Source: Clostridiales bacterium (GTDB lineage Bacteria > Bacillota > Clostridia > Caldicoprobacterales > Xylanivirgaceae). Taken from it: DNA of 43,243 nt. The notes beneath the pieces are model-generated. The model had not been told where the DNA came from and searched no databases. It worked only from the letters and a program-made list of their open reading frames with translations. The translations under genes and the position numbers were made by a program. The stretch lies in contig JAAZLT010000005.1 in the NCBI GenBank assembly GCA_012799205.1, forward strand, positions 1 to 43,243, written 5' to 3'. Positions 11,831 through 34,696 of the stretch are shown piece after piece (the first letter of the stretch is position 1; every line of letters starts with the position of its first letter).

Positions 11831-12775
11831 TTAACCTCCTCCATTGTTATTTTCATTTGTCTGTATAAGTGCCTTTAGCCTATCGTCAATAACTTGCGCT
11901 GCATTATATCCAAGTTTTTTAAGGCGCCAATTTCTAGCTGCCACCTCTACAATTATTGCAAGGTTTCGACCTGGCCGCACTGGCACCACAATCTTTGGCA
12001 CTTTAGCACCCAAAATCTCAGTATATTCATCTACAAGCCCTAGCCTGTCATATTCCTTATTGCTATCCCAAAATTCTAGCTGAATAGCCAGATCTAGGGG
12101 CTTATTATTTATAACTGCTCCAACTCCATACATTGCCTTTATATCTATTATACCAATTCCTCTAAGTTCCATAAAATGTTTTATAAGTTCAGGCGACTCA
12201 CCAATAAGTCTATGTTCGGCGACCTTCTTTATCTCTACTGCGTCATCTGCAACTAACCTATGGCCCCTTTTTATAAGCTCCAGAGCAGTTTCGCTTTTGC
12301 CTATACCGCTTTCACCCATTAAAAACATGCCAACCCCATATATATCAAGCAAAACTCCATGTTTTGTTATCTTAGGCGCCAATTGTGAATCCAGGTAACC
12401 AACTAGTCTATCTATAAGTGTAGTAGTTGAGAGTCTGGATCGCAATATTGGCCTTTTATACTTTTTAGCATAATGCATAATATATTCTGGGATCTGCATA
12501 TCCCTAGATATAATTGCACAGGGTATATCATGTTTAAAATATTCATTTAGGTTTTTCTCTCTCGCATCGGGCTGTTGCTGTTTAAGATATTCCATCTCAG
12601 ATTTGCCTATAACTTGGATTCTATGATAGTCGAAGTAATCAAAGAAGCCTGCAAATTGGAGCCCGGGCCTGTTGATATCGCTAGTGTCTATCTCCATGGA
12701 CAGTACGTTTTCAGCACAATATATATTTTCTAAATCAAATGCCTTTATAATGTTTTTAAAGGGAATACTACTCAA
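11831..12775 (-). CDS. hprK: HPr kinase/phosphorylase
   Basis: Walker A GESGIGKSETALELIKRGHRLVADDAVEI; C-terminal VRPGRNLAIIVEVAARNWRLKKLGYNAA. Confidence 0.95.
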   Translation of the reverse strand: MSSIPFKNIIKAFDLENIYCAENVLSMEIDTSDINRPGLQFAGFFDYFDYHRIQVIGKSEMEYLKQQQPDAREKNLNEYFKHDIPCAIISRDMQIPEYIMHYAKKYKRPILRSRLSTTTLIDRLVGYLDSQLAPKITKHGVLLDIYGVGMFLMGESGIGKSETALELIKRGHRLVADDAVEIKKVAEHRLIGESPELIKHFMELRGIGIIDIKAMYGVGAVINNKPLDLAIQLEFWDSNKEYDRLGLVDEYTEILGAKVPKIVVPVRPGRNLAIIVEVAARNWRLKKLGYNAAQVIDDRLKALIQTNENNNGGG

Positions 12776-20145: not shown

Positions 20146-20235
20146 TTTACGCGCCTCCTGTTTAAATATTGACATTATTATAACATAGTTTTTTATAAAA
20201 ACGCCAAAATGATTTCCAAATCCCCCAATAAATGA

Positions 20236-20241
20236 TATAAT
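20236..20241 (+). promoter_or_regulatory. Extended -10 (TGATATAAT) of the receiver-domain gene
   Basis: TATAAT at 20236-20241 with TG one base upstream; TTTCCA 17 bp upstream. Confidence 0.45.
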
Positions 20242-20283
20242 ATTTAAAGGAATCTATTGATTTATAAAGAGGAGAGGATGGCA

Positions 20284-20682
20284 ATGATTCTACGTGTGCT
20301 AATGGTAGATAATAGCTATCAAGCACGTCGCGATGTAGACAATAAAGTAAATTGGGTAGAAAACGACTTCGAGCTGGTGGGTGAGGCTAATAATGGTGAA
20401 GAAGCCCTTGCACTAATGCCACATGTATCGCCACATGTCATATTCACCGAAATTCGCATGCCCGTTATGGATGGTATCACGTTTATAGAGACCGCCAAAA
20501 AACGCTGGCCCGATGTTAAATATGTGATTGTAAGCAATTATGACAACTTTGACTACCTACGCCAAGCAATGAAAGTAGGCGCCTATGATTACATACTAAA
20601 ACCTGTCAGAGTTGATGAAATAAACCAAGTGCTCAGAAGAGCCAAGCTGGAAATTGAAACTGGCATTCGAAGATTCTTTTGA
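20284..20682 (+). CDS. Stand-alone response-regulator receiver domain (YesN-like), atypical phospho-site
   Basis: LMVDNSYQARRDVDNKVNWVENDFELVGEANNGEEAL...VIFTEIRMPVMDG...VIVSNYDNFDY...YILKPV; no output domain; GGAGAGG SD favours the ATG at 20284 (or 20278) over TTG 20257. Confidence 0.9.
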   Translation: MILRVLMVDNSYQARRDVDNKVNWVENDFELVGEANNGEEALALMPHVSPHVIFTEIRMPVMDGITFIETAKKRWPDVKYVIVSNYDNFDYLRQAMKVGAYDYILKPVRVDEINQVLRRAKLEIETGIRRFF

Positions 20683-20687
20683 GAAAA

Positions 20688-20720
20688 ACGCTTTAGACCT
20701 AAGTCTAAAGCGTCTTTTTT
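20688..20720. terminator. Bidirectional Rho-independent terminator between receiver gene and cdaR
   Basis: ACGCTTTAGAC-CTAA-GTCTAAAGCGT with T tract on + and T run on -. Confidence 0.92.
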
Positions 20721-20723
20721 TAT

Positions 20724-21935
20724 TTAGTCTATATCTGCTACTATCTCTTTTGGATCTATAGATATAATCTCAACACCTACAGGTGCATCTACCTTTATTG
20801 AGATCTTCTTCTCACCTCTAGATGCCTTCTCTAAATCTACATATGCCCTTATGTCCTCATCTTCTAGTTTATCTATCAATGGCTTATGTCCTTTTACAAC
20901 TATAGTAGCTTTCTCCCCAGAGAGATTGGCTGTTCTATTTGTATTTAAATTTTCCACATCTATCTCTATAGAAAATTCTCTTTCTATCTCTATTTTTTTA
21001 ATCCTCACAACTACACTGACCTCAGATGGCTGGGCCGGGTCTAGATATATATCATCGTACTTTTGCAATTTCACTGTGTGCTTTATATCCGCCTTGGCAT
21101 CATTTATATCAATGAGCTCTGTACCAATAGATTTCATATCATTTAATAGCTTTTCACTACCACTAACCGTAATAGATTTAGGTTGTATCTCTATATCGTC
21201 TATTTCATACCCCTCAGCAGGCTTACCTGATATAGAGGCTTCTATGGTAAGATCCTTCTTAGGATATATAGGTATCATCACTATAGAAAAATCTTGATCC
21301 ATAGTAATAAACTTTGAATCTATATGTTGCCCATTCTCATCTAAAAGCTCTATAGAAAGTGATTGTTCTATAGGGGATTTGCTTTGTTTTAGATCCAGCG
21401 ATACCCTTCCTCTTACTATCTTATCCACTAGAGATTGTGGGCCAGATAAGAATACCTTATCGGGTTTTAGGGTATATGGCTGCATCTGATAGTTTGTAGC
21501 CTCTCGCCCCCTTATATCTACTTCAACGGGCACCTGTTTCGATGTCCTCTTATCTATTAAGATGGTCTTTTCGGGCCGCTTTTCAAGCCGTATGCCCATG
21601 GGAATTCCCTCTATATCTATTTCTATCTTTTGCTCCCCTGCCTTTTCCACATCTGCTAGATCTATATAGCCTTTTATTTTGCTCTCGTCTATTCTATATA
21701 AATCCCTTGCTCTGCCTCTAAGTCTCACTGTTATAGGATCTTCTATATCCCGAACTAGGCTCAGTTCCTTAGAGTCTAGATGGGATTCATTTCTTACACT
21801 GACGGGGATGTTGCCATAGCTTTTTGGCACCTCCGGGTTTTCCTCGCCAATGGCTATAAACCAGAGAATAATTGCAAATACAATGGATATTATTTTAGCT
21901 GGCCAGTTTCTGTGTCTATCCATATCCCTACTCAC
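20724..21935 (-). CDS. cdaR: YbbR-domain protein, CdaR-like regulator of diadenylate cyclase
   Basis: N-terminal TM, repeated YbbR domains, overlaps cdaA. Confidence 0.88.
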   Translation of the reverse strand: MSRDMDRHRNWPAKIISIVFAIILWFIAIGEENPEVPKSYGNIPVSVRNESHLDSKELSLVRDIEDPITVRLRGRARDLYRIDESKIKGYIDLADVEKAGEQKIEIDIEGIPMGIRLEKRPEKTILIDKRTSKQVPVEVDIRGREATNYQMQPYTLKPDKVFLSGPQSLVDKIVRGRVSLDLKQSKSPIEQSLSIELLDENGQHIDSKFITMDQDFSIVMIPIYPKKDLTIEASISGKPAEGYEIDDIEIQPKSITVSGSEKLLNDMKSIGTELIDINDAKADIKHTVKLQKYDDIYLDPAQPSEVSVVVRIKKIEIEREFSIEIDVENLNTNRTANLSGEKATIVVKGHKPLIDKLEDEDIRAYVDLEKASRGEKKISIKVDAPVGVEIISIDPKEIVADID

Positions 21936-22782
21936 CTTTCATCCTCCACTTTTTAAAATCAAATGCTCTATGTTCCCCTTCTTGACCATATATCTCCTGC
22001 AAGATATCTTTTAATATCTTATGATCTAAATACCTAGTGAGCTTGCCATTATCTGCCATAGATATTATACCAGTCTCTTCTGATACGATTATGGCAACTG
22101 CATCTGATTGCTCTGATATTCCAATGGCAGCTCTATGGCGCGTGCCTAGCTGCTTGTCCAGATCTGGCGTGTTTGAAAGTGGAAGGAAACACCCAGCTGC
22201 AATTATTCTATCTTCCCTTATCACAGCTGCCCCATCATGTAATGGAGTATTTATTACAAATATATTTTCTATAAGCTGCTGAGATAGTCGTCCATCTATT
22301 GTAATACCAGTCTCTATAACATCATTTAACCCTGTCTTTTTCTCTATTACTATAAGTGCACCTATTTTATCCTCTGACATGCTCTTAATAGCTTTTATAA
22401 GCTCCTCTACTACAAAGGATGAATCTCTCTCGTCTTGAATTAAATTGGTTGCCCTATCAAATATATTGCCCCTACCTATTTGCTCTAGGGCACGCCTAAG
22501 CTCTGGTTGAAACACTACCAACAGAGCTATAACCCCAACGGTGACCGTATTTCTAAGTATCCAATAAACAGTATTAAGGCTTAAAACACCACTTAGCCAT
22601 GTTATAAATAATAATATAGTGAGGCCCTTTAATACCTGCTCTGCCTGTGTTCTTTGTATTAAGAGTATAAGGCGGTATAATACATAGGCCACCAGAAGTA
22701 TATCTATTATATGACGTATGACGTATGGAAATTGTATATACGGTTCCATGAAATATATTATGTCGTATAGCCTTGTGAGCAT
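21928..22782 (-). CDS. cdaA: Diadenylate cyclase CdaA (c-di-AMP synthase)
   Basis: Three TMs; DGAAVIREDRIIAAGCFLPLS and GTRHRAAIGISEQSDAVAIIVSEETG DAC motifs. Confidence 0.96.
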   Translation of the reverse strand: MLTRLYDIIYFMEPYIQFPYVIRHIIDILLVAYVLYRLILLIQRTQAEQVLKGLTILLFITWLSGVLSLNTVYWILRNTVTVGVIALLVVFQPELRRALEQIGRGNIFDRATNLIQDERDSSFVVEELIKAIKSMSEDKIGALIVIEKKTGLNDVIETGITIDGRLSQQLIENIFVINTPLHDGAAVIREDRIIAAGCFLPLSNTPDLDKQLGTRHRAAIGISEQSDAVAIIVSEETGIISMADNGKLTRYLDHKILKDILQEIYGQEGEHRAFDFKKWRMKGE

Positions 22783-26100: not shown

Positions 26101-29100
26101 TTATAGATTTATTTCTATCTGATGATGACCTCCATCATCCTTTAGATGGATAATATTATCCCCTTGTCCATCCCTGCCGTTTCGCACACGTATGCTATAG
26201 AGGGTGTTTATATATCTATAGCGAATTGTAAACTCGCTCCATTCAGTGGGTATACAGGGATCTATAGTTAGTACATCCCCTTTCTTTTTTAACCCTAAGA
26301 GCGATTCTATTGCAATCCTATACATCCAGCTAGCAGCTCCAGTATACCAGGTCCATCCACCTCTTCCTTCGTAGGGTGGGGCAGAGTACACATCTGCAGC
26401 CATCACATAGGGCTCAACTCTATATCTAAAGGCCTCTGTCGGGGTCTTTGAGTGGTTTATAGGATTTATCATGTTATAAAGCTCCATTGCAATATTACCA
26501 TCTTTAAGCATTGCATAGGCAAGTATGACCCAAGTAGCCGCGTGGGTATATTGCCCTCCATTCTCTCTCACTCCAGGCACATAACCCTTTATATAACCAG
26601 GGTCTAGTTCTGTACCAAAAAACGGTGGCCAGAGAAGTTTTATAATGCCTGTCTCCCTATCTATTAGATGATTTTCTAAAGAGCGCATAGCCTCCTTGAC
26701 CCGCTCACTGCGCCCGCCCTTTGATATTATACTCCATGATTGGCTTATGGAATCTATCTGGCATTCGTCATTATATTCAGATCCAAGTGGTGTTCCATCG
26801 TCAAAATATGCCCTTCTATACCAACCACCATCCCAGCCATGATCCTCTATAGACTTAAGGAGTTTATCCGCTATAGCACTTAGGGCCTTAGCTCTATCCA
26901 TATCCCCTTTCATCTCGCATATAGGAATAAAGTCATTTAACACCCTATACATAAACCAGCCTAGCCATATACTCTCTCCTTGGCCTTCTCTGCCTATTCT
27001 ATCCATGCCGTCATTCCAATCTCCACCGCCTATTAGCGGCAGCCCATGAACTCCAAATTTAGAGGCCCTCTCAATTGCTCTAATGCAATGATCATATAGA
27101 CTCTCCTTATCTTTTGACACTCTTGGTGAGTTATACCTATCCTTTTCATCTGGGCTAAGCTCTATATCCTCAAGATAGCTAAGCCCCTCATCTAATATGC
27201 TCTCATCACCTGTCACATTAATATAATCAGCTGTTAGGAAAGGTAAGAACAATAGATCATCAGTAATCCGGGTCCTCACACCCCTATTTGGCGGATGCCA
27301 CCAATGCTGTACATCGCCCTCTTTAAACTGATGCTCAGCATGAAGTAGAATCTGCCTTCTGGCAATCTTGGGATGGCTATGCATAACCGCTAATACATCC
27401 TGTAGCTGATCTCTATAGCCATATGCGCCTCCAGCCTGATAAAATGCAGTTCTTGCCCAAAGTCTGCTGCTTATGGTCTGGTAGAGTAGCCATCTATTTA
27501 TAAGGATATTAAATGATTGATCTGGAGTGTTGACCTGCACAGTCTCCAAGGTCTTATCCCAAAATTGTTTTACTTTTTCTAATTCTGTAGATACATTCTC
27601 AAACCTTCTATACTTTGCTGTAAGAGATTCTATATCTCTCATATCTTGGCTTTGCCCCAGTATTAAGGCAATATTTTCTTTTGAATCGCCTGGTATGGTG
27701 ACCTTTATATGGATAGCACCGCATGGATCGAAGCCTGCGCCGGCCGTGTTACTAAGCCTTATCCTCTCAAGCGCTGCAGGTTTTTTATAGTTCCCACCTC
27801 TGCCTATAAACTCTCCCCTATCTGAAGTAAAGGACATTATAGGTTTATTGGAAAACATAAATGCCTGCTCATCTATGAACTCTTCATTATGTGGATTGGA
27901 TGTCAAAAGAACATCTAGATCTCTATCATATTTAGATTTTATAAACTCTGTTCCGGCGGTTCTATCCACCCCTAATGCCCATTTGCAATAGTAGTATATA
28001 CTTATATCCCTTGGTTGAGAGCTTGGATTGTGGATTGTCATCATATTTATCTTTACCGGATTTTCTCTTGGCACATATACAGTCTGAGTGCAATACATTC
28101 CATGGCTATTATGCTCAAATGTAGTATATCCCTGACCGTGCCTAATTACATACTCTCCATCCCCCCTAATCGGAGAAGGTGTAACTGTCCAGGCATGGCC
28201 TGTCTTATCATCTCTTATATATATGGCCTCTCCTGGCGGATCTACCACGGGATCATTTGACCATGTAGTTAGCTTGTTCTCCCTACTATTTTTATTCCAT
28301 GTATATACAGTGCCTAGCTCCGTTATAAGGGTTCCAAAGCTTTCATTGGCAATTACATTGCTCCAAGGAGCAGGCGTGAACATTCCTTCAGTCAATTGCA
28401 TTATATATTCTCTGCCATTTTGCCAAAATCCGCCCAGTCCATTATAAAACATTAGCTCATCTTTAGGAAATTTAGGAGGATGTACATTTACATATTTATA
28501 TGACGAAATTCTATCCACAGACTTTGGAAGTATATAGGGCCGCCTTCTGTATAGCTGCATTTCTAAGTTTCCATCATCTCCTCTTAGAACCAGGGCACTG
28601 GCAGATATTATGGCCTTTATCTCATCCTTTTCCATCTGATCTGCCTGCCTCAAATATATACCTCCCGGGCAATCCTTAAGATCTCTACAATGCCCTATAG
28701 AGATAATCTCCTCTAGCCGTTCTGTAATAGGCTGTTCATAGCTGCTGCCATATTCATTTAACACTACAATATCTACCTTAAGTCCCTTGGTATGCCAATA
28801 TTCATGAGCAGATAATATTTTATTTACTAGAGATATATGTGCCATAGATTTAATCGCAATTACTACTATTGGTAGTTCTCCTGAAATCCCATGAGCCCAT
28901 AGGGCAGTCCTTCCCCTATTGTTTTTTACTATTATATCACCCTGTCCTGCCTTATTAGGGGAGTGGTAGAGTATGTGAGATGCCAGCTCCTGATAAAAAT
29001 TAGCATCCTCTAGGGAAATACCTAGGTATTTAAGTTCTACTTGATTTCTGGTCCAAGCAAGTTCAAATGCAGACTCTATTGAGCCCTGGCTGCTGTTTTC

Positions 29101-32100
29101 TCTTGCAAGTGATATGGCTTCATCCCTACTTGTGGCAGCACCAGTTATATAGGATACCTTTGCCGATCCCCCGGCGTCTATGCCAACCCTCTTTCTAAGG
29201 CTCATTATAGGATCTATCACAGCCCCTACTGTATTAGATAGGGGAGTGCCTGGATCCATGGAGACTGGAGAGGCGGTATCTCGACCCCTTCCTATAAATT
29301 TCATCCTATTGGTTTCATATTGCAGCGCCCCTATATCCTCCCCTTCCTCCACTAATACACTATGGACAACCCATATATCACTCTCCAGATTAGCTCCCGG
29401 GCGCCTTCGGGCAATTAATGCGTTATATTCTGGCACAAATTCTGTCACTACAAATAGATTATTAAATGCTCTATGGGCAATATCACTTATAAGGGGTGCT
29501 ATAACTAGCTCAAAATAGCTGGTTACATCTACTACCCTCCTATAGCTGCTAGTATTCTTTAGCGTCAATCTCCTGATCTCTACATCCTGGGTCGGAGAGA
29601 TGATTATATCAGTACGGGTCTTAATACTCCCATCTTTTCTTTTAAATGTGGCTCTATCTACAGCAAATTCTACGCCATATTTATCTGCCCTATGGCCACA
29701 AGGCATATAGGTAGCCGACCAGAAATTATTGGAGTTGAGATTTTGTACATAAATAGATGGTCCCCAATCATCTTTGGTAGTGTCCTGCCTCCACCTGCTT
29801 ATAGCTGCATCCTTATATTTTATATAACCTCCACCGCTATTGGTAATAACTGTAGATAGATTTTCATTAGATAGTATCTGAACCTGGGGGAGCTGGGTTC
29901 TTGGGCTACTAAACCGTCTCACCTTATCTGAATGCGTTCTCAGGTCCCTATGAACAGGCAGTGTAGGTTCTATAAAGTCCTTTAGGTATACCTTTTTTAC
30001 AGGAATCCTCTCTTGGAGCAAAAGATTTACCGATCTTACAATAGGATGGCTGTGAAAACGCTTTTGCATCACATTATCATATAGCATATTTGAAATGGCC
30101 ATAAGGCTCATTCCCTTATGGTGGGCCATGAAACTTTCTACTACTGCGCTATCTTTGCCCCTAGGTAGCCTTGAGGGAGTATAATCTATGGCTTCAAAAA
30201 GGCCATACTCTCCTTCTAGGCCCTTTTCTATGAGATGATGTATATTTTGCATTGCAAGATTTTTATCTACCTGAAGCGCCAATACAGAGGCATAAGGGGT
30301 TATTACAAGGTCTTCACCAAGGCCGGATTTTAGGCCTAGACCCGGCACTCCAAAGGCCTTGTATTGATAATTAAAATGTCTGTCAAATGCGTTATATCCA
30401 GACTCTGATATGCCCCAGGGCAAATTCCTTCGCCTTGTATATTCTATCTGCCCGCGAATGACACCTTTATATGTCTCGTTAAAAAGAGTATAGGGGTAGT
30501 CTCTCATAACTAAAAGGGGCATCATATATTCAAACATAGTGCCACTCCAAGATAGGAGCGTCTTTGTATTCCCTATAGTAGTTAGGGCACGTCCCATTTT
30601 AAACCAATGCCTCTTTGGCACATCCCCCTTCCCAATGGCTATAAGACTTGCCTGCCTTGCCTCGGAAGCCAGTATATCATAAAAACTATTTGTAAGCTGT
30701 CCACTTTCGACATCATAACCTATGGAGAAAAGCTCTCTTTCGTTATCGTAGAGCTTTGCAAAATTCATCTTCATAAATAACATCTCCACTCGCTCTATGA
30801 GCATGTCTATATCCGCTAAAAAAGTTTGTAGACCCTTATGTGATAGGTTTATGGCCTCCTTAAATTCATCAACCCATTTATGGCTGACATCGCTGCTCTT
30901 AGCCCCAGCAAGCCGAGACTTTTGCCCTCCATCTATTTCATCTAGGATATTTAAAATCTCTTCATATCCTTTAATATATTCGGATATACTTAATGGACTA
31001 TTAAGCTTACTCAGCATCTCTAATAGCCCTTCGTCCAATCCCCTCTCGTTTAAACTATCTTCTAATAAAAAGTCTGGAATGTCGGCTAATATCCCGACCC
31101 AGGGTAAAAATGTATTGAGCTCCCTTTTATATGCCTTGACTACACTCTCTATGCGAGAAATAGGGCTACTATCCTGCGCATCTAGCAATCTCTTCCATCT
31201 AGTTAATGTGAAATCTCGTCTTACAACCTCATCTGGCAGTACAGTCAATATATCCTCATATTCTCTACCTGAGTATGCATATATAGTATCCCTTAAACCC
31301 TCTATAACCACACTATTTACTATTGGTGCCTCCCTTAACCTAGATAGCTCCTCTATGAGCACAATTAAATATCCTGCTAGATTTCCGTTATCTACTGTGG
31401 ATACATATGCGGGAATAAGAGGCTTTAATGTTCTAGTGTCATACCAGTTATATATATGGCCCTCCCATTTTTCTAGTTTTTCTACCGTGGCTATAGTATC
31501 TTTAGCTCTTTCTACAAATTCTAAATTCCCTATATAGCCAAGATCCTTTGCTGCAAGGGCTGACATAAGACCTAGCCCTATATTTGTGGGGGATGTCCTA
31601 TGAGCCACACCAGTTATAGGGTTAAGTTGGTAATTATCCGGCGGAAGCCAATTATTTTCCTGAGTCATAAAGTCCTCGAAATAGCCCCAGGTCTTTCTAG
31701 CTAGCCGCCTAATGGTCTTAATCTCTTGCTGCTCTAATTTATCGCTGGAATAGTCAATTGGCCTGCTGATTATATAGGCTATCCAAGGAGCAAATATCCA
31801 AATCATTGCAAGTATTAGGGCAAATATGGTATTGGGGCCCTCAATGGCCAGAATCGCCATTACTTGAAACATGCCTATGATGATTGAATATATCATCTTT
31901 GTAATAAAGTCTGCAAAGTTTCCTGTAAATCTTCTTTCTGTATCGGCTGCTGTAACCCACTCTAACATATTCTTTCGGGTGAAAAATACTCTGACTATGC
32001 TTCGAAGGATAGCATCAAGCATTAAATGCCCCTGATATGCTATAAACACCATAAATAGGGTGGATTGCCATATAACAGAGCCTATCTCAGAAAATATCTC

Positions 32101-34599
32101 ATCTATTCCAATTTGCCGGCGCCAATGCCTATAGTATCCTATTAGGCAGTCAAGCGTGTCTATTATAAATGGGTAGACAACTGTCAAGATAGCTAAAGCC
32201 AGCCAACCCTTTGAGCCCTTTAGTATATTTAGTGAACCCAATATAAATATAAATAGAAGCATAGTCGGCACCAGGCTTCGCCTCATATTATCTAGTATCT
32301 TCCACTTAGACAGTAAAGATAGAGGCGAGCGTTTGCCAAGCCAGGGCATAAGCTGCCAATCTCCTCTAGTCCATCTATGTTGTCTCATACCATAGGCCAC
32401 ATAATGGGAGGGGTACCCATCTATGAATTCCAGATCTGTAGCAAGGCCCGTTCTTATATAAGAGCCCTCTAGTAGATCATGGCTTAGAACACTATTTTCT
32501 GGAATGGCACCATCTAGGACCTCTAAAAATATATCCACATCATATATACCCTTGCCTACAAATATGCCCTCTTTAAATAAATCTTGGTATATATCGGATA
32601 CAGCAGTGGTATATGGATCTATACCCGCCTGGCCCGAAAATTTAAGCGAGAAAAATGAGCTAGCAGCACTTTCAATATCCACTCCAATTCTAGGCTGAAT
32701 TATCCCATATCCATCTACCACTAAAGTAGCATCATCATTTAATACGGGTCTATTAAGTGGATGCCCCATTATACCTATAAGCTCTTTTGCAGTCTCTCTT
32801 GGCAGCTGGGTATCGGCATCTAATGTGATTACATATTTTATCCTGGGAAGTATACTAAGATCTCCCTCTTTTATATAATAGCTTGTTCCGCCATCTCCTC
32901 TAAGTAGCCTATTGAACTCTACTAAAGCCCCCCTTTTACGCTCCCATCCCATCCATAGTCTTTGATCCTCATTCCATTGCCTACTTCTATTGAAATAGAA
33001 AAATATACCCTCTCCATATTTGGCGTTTAGGGCCCTTATCGCCTCTATTCCTGCCTGAGCGATTTCGTCATCTGATGATTCGTATTCATTAGGCCCATCC
33101 TTAAAATCCCCTACAATAGCAAAATGGAGTCTTTTGTCTTTATTAGCCATATAAAAGACTTCCATTTGCTTGGCTAATTCCTCTACGCTCTTTTTACTTG
33201 TCAGTAGTGTAGGAGTTATGACCATGGTCTCAAATTCTTTAGGGATACCATCTTTAAGCTCAAGTCTTGGCAATATGCTAGGCGGATACTTAGTAGTTAT
33301 AAGCCAATTAGCTAAACCTATGACTATACTTAATATGGGAACTAGAGCCAGCAATATATAGAGTATAGTTAAAGCATTGAAGCCTTCAGCTAATATACCT
33401 GATGTTAGCAGGAATAGCCCTATACATAGAGCAGTTAATCCCATTATTCCCCCTATATAGACTTTGGCTCGATCATATATTCTTCTATCTTCTAAGCCTA
33501 TATAATCCTTAAGTATCTGCCTACCCTTGCCTACTAGATAATAACCTACATGTTTAAATTTAATATCATCCTGCATGGAGTCGTCTCTATTTTCTATACA
33601 CTCTAATACGAGTCTTGCTACATAGACTTCGTCTAGGTCCGCCCTTTTCGCAAGTTTCGCCAGCTCTTTCCTATAATAGTCGCGGGATTTAAAATCCATC
33701 CTACCGTAAATCTGAGCTGGGTCTTTTCTCAGTACTCTATCCATCAAAGATAGATCTTCTATAATATCTTCCCATCTTATCTCTGATACTAGCTTCAAGG
33801 ATGTGATTACATTTCCCATAGAGACCTTAGCTTCGGTTTGCCTTTTATACTCTCTTTGTGCTACACTATCCGCACTATCCCCTTGCCTAATTAGACGTCT
33901 ATCTATTTGCTTTATAATAGTCGCGGCTTCAGCGCCATGATCTTGTAGACATCTTAAAAGTGAATCTGCATAGGACATTTGCATATATTTATAATGCCTA
34001 TCATGCTGATCCAATACGGCATATAGTTGAACTGAGGATTTCTCAAAAGCTTCGATCATTCTTTGACCCCATCTATATCCCTCATATTTGAGTTTTTGTG
34101 TATTTTCTATATCTACAGCCATGTACTCTATGTTTTGTATAAGTACTATTTTAAGCATAAGTGGAATAGCCCAAAGTTCAGATATGGTAAGTGGAGTCAC
34201 CTTTTGGTATTGGTCTATAAATTTATATATTATATCACTATCTAGTCTTCCCGATGTAAAATCTATAATCTCTCTTGCAATTTCATATACCCGTAGATCT
34301 TCTCTGTAATCTGCTCCTTTAAGTACGGGTAGATCTTTGAAATAGCCATTGCGTAAATTAAATTGTATATCTTTAATATGCCCCTCAATTATATAGAAAT
34401 TATCCACTAGCCACTCTGCCGCTGGCACCATGTTAGACTCATGTTTTATATTTGAATAAATAGATCTATAGGACTCAATTAGTTTAGCACTACTTCTTTT
34501 CATGTCTATAACCACTGGTGGTTTTGGCATTCCATCTATTACCCTACTTTGCTCCATTGCTACTTGTTCTGCTCTCTCTTGTAAGGTTTCTGTATTCAA
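26101..34599 (-). CDS. Cyclic beta-1,2-glucan synthase-like protein (NdvB/Cgs type)
   Basis: GT region with YVITLDADTQLPRETAKELIGIMGHPLNRP and MRQHRWTRGDWQLMPW, central glucoamylase-like region, C-terminal GH94-like GGGDWNDGMDRIG; SD AAAGGAGA supports a TTG start at 34599 rather than 34620. Confidence 0.9.
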   Translation of the reverse strand: MNTETLQERAEQVAMEQSRVIDGMPKPPVVIDMKRSSAKLIESYRSIYSNIKHESNMVPAAEWLVDNFYIIEGHIKDIQFNLRNGYFKDLPVLKGADYREDLRVYEIAREIIDFTSGRLDSDIIYKFIDQYQKVTPLTISELWAIPLMLKIVLIQNIEYMAVDIENTQKLKYEGYRWGQRMIEAFEKSSVQLYAVLDQHDRHYKYMQMSYADSLLRCLQDHGAEAATIIKQIDRRLIRQGDSADSVAQREYKRQTEAKVSMGNVITSLKLVSEIRWEDIIEDLSLMDRVLRKDPAQIYGRMDFKSRDYYRKELAKLAKRADLDEVYVARLVLECIENRDDSMQDDIKFKHVGYYLVGKGRQILKDYIGLEDRRIYDRAKVYIGGIMGLTALCIGLFLLTSGILAEGFNALTILYILLALVPILSIVIGLANWLITTKYPPSILPRLELKDGIPKEFETMVITPTLLTSKKSVEELAKQMEVFYMANKDKRLHFAIVGDFKDGPNEYESSDDEIAQAGIEAIRALNAKYGEGIFFYFNRSRQWNEDQRLWMGWERKRGALVEFNRLLRGDGGTSYYIKEGDLSILPRIKYVITLDADTQLPRETAKELIGIMGHPLNRPVLNDDATLVVDGYGIIQPRIGVDIESAASSFFSLKFSGQAGIDPYTTAVSDIYQDLFKEGIFVGKGIYDVDIFLEVLDGAIPENSVLSHDLLEGSYIRTGLATDLEFIDGYPSHYVAYGMRQHRWTRGDWQLMPWLGKRSPLSLLSKWKILDNMRRSLVPTMLLFIFILGSLNILKGSKGWLALAILTVVYPFIIDTLDCLIGYYRHWRRQIGIDEIFSEIGSVIWQSTLFMVFIAYQGHLMLDAILRSIVRVFFTRKNMLEWVTAADTERRFTGNFADFITKMIYSIIIGMFQVMAILAIEGPNTIFALILAMIWIFAPWIAYIISRPIDYSSDKLEQQEIKTIRRLARKTWGYFEDFMTQENNWLPPDNYQLNPITGVAHRTSPTNIGLGLMSALAAKDLGYIGNLEFVERAKDTIATVEKLEKWEGHIYNWYDTRTLKPLIPAYVSTVDNGNLAGYLIVLIEELSRLREAPIVNSVVIEGLRDTIYAYSGREYEDILTVLPDEVVRRDFTLTRWKRLLDAQDSSPISRIESVVKAYKRELNTFLPWVGILADIPDFLLEDSLNERGLDEGLLEMLSKLNSPLSISEYIKGYEEILNILDEIDGGQKSRLAGAKSSDVSHKWVDEFKEAINLSHKGLQTFLADIDMLIERVEMLFMKMNFAKLYDNERELFSIGYDVESGQLTNSFYDILASEARQASLIAIGKGDVPKRHWFKMGRALTTIGNTKTLLSWSGTMFEYMMPLLVMRDYPYTLFNETYKGVIRGQIEYTRRRNLPWGISESGYNAFDRHFNYQYKAFGVPGLGLKSGLGEDLVITPYASVLALQVDKNLAMQNIHHLIEKGLEGEYGLFEAIDYTPSRLPRGKDSAVVESFMAHHKGMSLMAISNMLYDNVMQKRFHSHPIVRSVNLLLQERIPVKKVYLKDFIEPTLPVHRDLRTHSDKVRRFSSPRTQLPQVQILSNENLSTVITNSGGGYIKYKDAAISRWRQDTTKDDWGPSIYVQNLNSNNFWSATYMPCGHRADKYGVEFAVDRATFKRKDGSIKTRTDIIISPTQDVEIRRLTLKNTSSYRRVVDVTSYFELVIAPLISDIAHRAFNNLFVVTEFVPEYNALIARRRPGANLESDIWVVHSVLVEEGEDIGALQYETNRMKFIGRGRDTASPVSMDPGTPLSNTVGAVIDPIMSLRKRVGIDAGGSAKVSYITGAATSRDEAISLARENSSQGSIESAFELAWTRNQVELKYLGISLEDANFYQELASHILYHSPNKAGQGDIIVKNNRGRTALWAHGISGELPIVVIAIKSMAHISLVNKILSAHEYWHTKGLKVDIVVLNEYGSSYEQPITERLEEIISIGHCRDLKDCPGGIYLRQADQMEKDEIKAIISASALVLRGDDGNLEMQLYRRRPYILPKSVDRISSYKYVNVHPPKFPKDELMFYNGLGGFWQNGREYIMQLTEGMFTPAPWSNVIANESFGTLITELGTVYTWNKNSRENKLTTWSNDPVVDPPGEAIYIRDDKTGHAWTVTPSPIRGDGEYVIRHGQGYTTFEHNSHGMYCTQTVYVPRENPVKINMMTIHNPSSQPRDISIYYYCKWALGVDRTAGTEFIKSKYDRDLDVLLTSNPHNEEFIDEQAFMFSNKPIMSFTSDRGEFIGRGGNYKKPAALERIRLSNTAGAGFDPCGAIHIKVTIPGDSKENIALILGQSQDMRDIESLTAKYRRFENVSTELEKVKQFWDKTLETVQVNTPDQSFNILINRWLLYQTISSRLWARTAFYQAGGAYGYRDQLQDVLAVMHSHPKIARRQILLHAEHQFKEGDVQHWWHPPNRGVRTRITDDLLFLPFLTADYINVTGDESILDEGLSYLEDIELSPDEKDRYNSPRVSKDKESLYDHCIRAIERASKFGVHGLPLIGGGDWNDGMDRIGREGQGESIWLGWFMYRVLNDFIPICEMKGDMDRAKALSAIADKLLKSIEDHGWDGGWYRRAYFDDGTPLGSEYNDECQIDSISQSWSIISKGGRSERVKEAMRSLENHLIDRETGIIKLLWPPFFGTELDPGYIKGYVPGVRENGGQYTHAATWVILAYAMLKDGNIAMELYNMINPINHSKTPTEAFRYRVEPYVMAADVYSAPPYEGRGGWTWYTGAASWMYRIAIESLLGLKKKGDVLTIDPCIPTEWSEFTIRYRYINTLYSIRVRNGRDGQGDNIIHLKDDGGHHQIEINL

Positions 34600-34696
34600 T
34601 ATATAGTCTCTCCTTTGCAAGTGATTTATATATTGCCTTATCTAATTATGTGCTTTTTTAGCAATATGAATACATTTAAGGATGGAATGACATAAA

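Follow-up and report, generated by a model that had tools for sequence, protein, structure and literature searches.

The window, by which we mean the whole stretch of 43,243 nucleotides analysed here, carries on its forward strand at 20284..20682 a lone pseudo-receiver gene encoding 132 aa, recognised by translation, Pfam, orthologues and an AlphaFold2 model. The translation reads MILRVLMVDNSYQ...VIFTEIRMPVMDG...VIVSNYD...YILKPV...IRRFF*, and the receiver model PF00072 spans residues 5-117 with 77.5 bits (Pfam cut-off 30.2); only 15 residues follow before the frame stops at residue 132, with a terminator behind it, so that the protein has no output domain, the AraC-type DNA-binding domain included. 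The start at 20284 is favoured by ribosome-site spacing and by the orthologues, an in-frame ATG at 20278 being a possible alternative. Upstream, a promoter scan (10/12 with TG) placed a putative promoter at 20213..20241 (+), consisting of a -35 TTTCCA, a 17-base spacer and the extended -10 TGATATAAT, and a terminator scan placed an intrinsic terminator at 20688..20713 (+), between the receiver gene and the convergent ybbR gene. Whole-genome searches recovered single-copy orthologues, 76-92% identical, in 22 of 30 genomes of the window's order, and in all 22 the motif TGnTATAAT lies about 30-56 bases upstream of the receiver start region. The -35 element (20213-20219) is a conserved TTTYCAA-like sequence, not TTGACA, in most orthologues, and with both elements retained the receiver gene looks independently transcribed; together the predicted signals show what reads as its own conserved transcription unit.

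Beyond the terminator lie ybbR (cdaR) and cdaA (20724..22782, -; Pfam YbbR, DAC and CdaA_N), conserved convergent neighbours taken here as context, with a candidate relation only. The pair adjoins the receiver gene in each of the 22 genomes that have it, the usual position being between ftsW and ybbR; family f2 has a different flank on the ftsW side, and genus g6 carries the receiver gene inverted at the same site (L128:7580-9860 and L129). One g6 genome (G006) has an apparent transposase gene, IS30-like by eye, inserted between receiver and ybbR, and in G003 (L031:6421-7128) an extra gene for about 235 aa with CxxC motifs occupies that place. A preliminary description of this DNA had called the receiver an orphan without output domain and without a kinase nearby, which is borne out: no histidine kinase was seen among the window genes, where a Pfam scan covered ten neighbours and inspection by eye the other ORFs, and the only kinase among the ten scanned neighbours is an HPr Ser kinase at 11831-12775. 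No known RNA element was found near the receiver gene. Further along, at 26101-34620, the window encodes a 2839-aa protein that resembles by eye a cyclic glucan synthase (NdvB-like), and in a large part of the order this gene keeps its place next to those for the amidase and CdaA. In family f4 only, ftsW and receiver/ybbR are separated by a conserved gene for a predicted protein of about 100 aa, by eye a possible winged-helix protein (L128:6833-7135, L129:7220-7522, L043:5230-5568, L044:5016-5354 and L121:4755-5051); we rejected it as a partner of the receiver because it is limited to this family and is present also where the receiver is absent.

At the phospho-acceptor position the window protein has Glu56, encoded by GAA at 20449..20451 (+), and the orthologues have Glu in 20 of 22 cases (GAA or GAG), Ala (GCC) in both genomes of genus g5 and Asp in none. 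The preliminary description had read this Glu from the window and proposed an alignment of homologues as a check on whether it is fixed; the answer is positive, with g5 as the informative exception, and close homologues with Asp, which it had named as grounds for giving the claim up, were not encountered. The altered acidic pocket (VDN) and the retained switch Ser and Lys of that description are likewise present: the second acidic (DD2) position, Asn10 (20311..20313, +), is Ser in 16 and Asn in six of the orthologues and never acidic, Ser84 is kept and followed at T+1 by a bulky Asn85 (20533..20538, +), and the residues from Tyr103 (K-3) to Lys106 (20590..20601, +) are conserved in every orthologue, with Ile or Leu at position 104. 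T+1 (position 85) is Asn, His or Tyr throughout the 22, whereas it is mostly Gly, Ala or Cys in a comparison set of 40 YesN-type receivers, of which 38 belong to the same order and two to other families of the class; small T+1 residues give access to the phosphorylation site (PMC12632262). Moreover, all 40 of these receivers keep both Asps, and a loss common to 22 of 22 orthologues against 40 of 40 that retain the residue is not a matter of chance. On three separate counts, the acceptor Asp, the second acidic residue and T+1, these alignments show a dead phosphorylation site, while Glu is evidently favoured at the acceptor position, yet replaceable.

By the absence of the acceptor Asp the family belongs to the ALR, or pseudo-receivers (Maule 2015; Bourret 2025), with which it shares the receiver fold, the retained first acidic residue and Lys and the lost second acidic residue; the second position is non-acidic in about 80% of pseudo-receivers (PMC12632262), and Glu was the commonest replacement, at 26%, in a 2015 survey of aspartate-less receivers (PMC4395418). 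It differs from them in being free-standing without an output domain, single-copy and order-wide, and in its natural Ala variants. With Spo0F and CheY it has in common the single receiver domain without output, but these signal by phosphotransfer to Asp, and the window protein has neither the Asp acceptor nor the Asp/Glu acidic pair of such phosphorylated single-domain regulators, which makes the usual route impossible. The pseudo-receivers of FrzS and ChxR work without phosphorylation (PMC1974792, PMC4395418), but each is part of a larger protein, the likeness drawn here being one of mode of action.

Pairwise dN/dS among the receiver orthologues is 0.01-0.06 where estimable, and 70 of the 132 columns are invariant. 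On average the receivers are 84% identical to the window protein, compared with 64% for CdaA, 58% for UvrC, 56% for the amidase, 50% for FtsW and 38% for YbbR; well-sampled neighbours range from about 37 to 64%, and formate-THF ligase reaches 78% in a sample of only three genomes of the same family. These figures show a gene that, to judge by its substitutions, is under very strong purifying selection. The two Ala proteins of g5 are part of this pattern, being 83-84% identical to the window protein with a dN/dS of about 0.03 between them. The usual Arg/Lys-Phe-Phe end is missing from G019 and G027, so the last few residues are not essential.

Beyond the order, identity does not exceed 43% even for the best matches, all of which lie in long YesN-like proteins; no lone orthologue was found outside the order in 391 genomes sampled from the class, nor in a scan of 84,980 species genomes that relies on short exact peptides. 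As far as seen, the family is confined to a single order of uncultured anaerobes of the Clostridia type, several of them from biogas digesters. In a tree of neighbouring proteins the gene goes back to the root of the order and was lost at least three times, so that some lineages can do without the receiver. Five genomes lack the gene cleanly from an otherwise intact locus, and in G014 no receiver end adjoins ybbR. A limited search of open-access papers returned no description of the family, which appears undescribed in the papers searched, its kind being already known. The novelty is modest, considering that pseudo-receivers are a known class in which no substitution is commoner than Glu; what is unusual is a stand-alone, order-wide family under extreme constraint that comes with a natural Glu-to-Ala test.

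Structure prediction, another check proposed in the preliminary description, gave a confident receiver fold for the window protein (AlphaFold2, pLDDT 94.9, pTM 0.89), a predicted (beta-alpha)5 arrangement of five strands and five helices which together with the PF00072 match makes it a receiver domain. The best PDB relatives are the Geobacillus AraT receiver structures 6swb and 6swf (AraT: E 4.6e-13, TM 0.87), and the nearest relatives outside the family are receivers of YesN-like proteins, mostly 500-580 aa long, which places it among the YesN-type receivers. Those of the AraC-family regulators AraT (6swb) and XynC (6swl) resemble it most, both in sequence (up to 42-43%) and in fold, but retain Asp and the acidic pair and bear an AraC-type output domain. 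In a comparison with a YesN profile under leave-one-out control, with z from 40 partly related receivers, the orthologues deviate in alpha1 (z=-1.8), the alpha1-beta2 loop (-1.8) and the beta4-alpha4 loop (-2.0). The deviation is largest at the kinase-docking positions of alpha1 (z=-2.6) and absent from the alpha4-beta5-alpha5 set (+0.14); positions 13, 14, 17 and 21 come from the RR468 rewiring named in the PDB title of 4jav, position 18 is our addition, and the set, borrowed from another system (HK853-RR468), may not map exactly onto this receiver. Within codons 13-21 (20320..20346, +) all five of these positions are rewritten, and Asp17, Asp19 and Lys21 are invariant. Read from the alignment, the comparison shows a kinase-docking helix that is apparently rewritten beside an alpha4-beta5-alpha5 face that is apparently kept. 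Conserved residues peculiar to the family are spread over nearly every face of the receiver, and no single binding surface stands out; overall, we infer a surface pattern that points away from kinases and towards the retained association face and a new alpha1 surface.

We consider it fairly probable that this protein is a YesN-derived, stand-alone, aspartate-less pseudo-receiver that has lost the capacity for ordinary phosphorylation and serves constitutively as an adaptor binding other proteins. The phosphorylation-independent pseudo-receiver put forward in the preliminary description is strongly supported by the sequences, with no acceptor Asp or second acidic residue in 22 of 22 orthologues, a bulky T+1 and strong purifying selection. 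As an adaptor, the protein would associate through alpha4-beta5-alpha5, either with itself or with a YesN-type receiver, and would present the newly fixed alpha1 / alpha1-beta2 surface to a second partner; its activity would be set by its abundance and by what it binds, and Glu56 probably does no more than keep the pocket shut and ordered. Dimerisation via alpha4-beta5-alpha5 in the absence of phosphorylation is frequent among pseudo-receivers, some of which use alpha1-beta2 to bind ligands or proteins (PMC12632262). Against the adaptor, the sequence and predicted-structure analysis turned up neither a partner nor a dimer nor a phenotype; the spread of family-specific residues over the surface, the borrowed docking positions and the losses of the gene in some lineages also count against it. 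A 2025 review calls the working of bacterial pseudo-receivers a mystery (PMC12632262), and the present family is a clean subject in this respect, being one small domain without a confusing output domain whose extreme conservation marks the functional surface.

A possible but doubtful alternative is that the protein regulates YesM/YesN two-component systems, capping or pairing with YesN-type receivers or serving as a kinase decoy. Its derivation from YesN receivers and its retained alpha4-beta5-alpha5 face are consistent with such a role, but the decoy form conflicts with the rewritten docking positions, and some receiver-bearing genomes have just one YesM kinase that we could find. YesM kinases are more numerous in genomes with the receiver (4.3) than in those without (1.6; p=0.013), but this association falls away once genome size is included (t=1.3), and we rejected kinase number as a link to the receiver.

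It is unlikely that Glu56 is a fixed phosphomimetic whose negative side chain locks the domain in a phosphorylated-like active state. The Asp-to-Glu change D54E in NtrC reportedly mimics phosphorylation, and in the present family the prevalence of Glu with both GAA and GAG codons indicates selection, with the switch residues Ser84, Tyr103 and Lys106 kept alongside. That aspartate-less receivers have Glu more often than any other substitute (PMC4395418) also speaks for it, but the metal-binding second acidic residue is gone in every orthologue, and the activity of ChxR is not abolished by a change of its Glu to Asp or Ala (PMC4395418). Both g5 genomes have Ala, moreover, with no visible relaxation of constraint, and because Ala occurs naturally, phosphomimicry by Glu is not essential to the family. 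The constitutive activity through a phosphate mimic that the preliminary description had suggested is hence conceivable, though not established, for the 20 Glu members and falls as an essential family feature; this natural variant separates the phosphomimic idea from other explanations.

Modulation of the neighbouring CdaA-YbbR cyclic-di-AMP synthase, or binding of cyclic-di-AMP, is rather improbable. Adjacency to ybbR-cdaA holds even in lineages in which the other flank has changed or the receiver is inverted, and another pseudo-receiver, ShkA, binds a cyclic dinucleotide (PMC12632262), but the receiver gene is convergent to and transcribed apart from ybbR-cdaA, cdaA-ybbR stays intact where the receiver was lost, and plain conserved gene order can explain the adjacency. 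A broader form of the adaptor, which we put forward tentatively and regard as unlikely, would make it a core housekeeping adaptor of one order that swapped its docking surface for a partner surface and kept its dimer face, a phosphate-independent hub perhaps coupling regulator dimers to the cell-envelope or cyclic-di-AMP functions encoded alongside. A sequencing error, recent mutation, pseudogene or decaying truncated YesN regulator, as a truncated YesN-like protein with its catalytic residue missing might suggest, is refuted almost to certainty by the length, substitutions, promoter and place common to the 22 orthologues and by a dN/dS of at most 0.06.

Two further associations were rejected: a link to motility, flagellin being missing from several receiver-bearing genomes, and a link to sporulation, for which Spo0A, found in 30 of 30 genomes, gives no discrimination. 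Nearly all 30 genomes of the order encode two proteins with a Spo0A C-terminal domain, which to our knowledge is unusual among spore formers.
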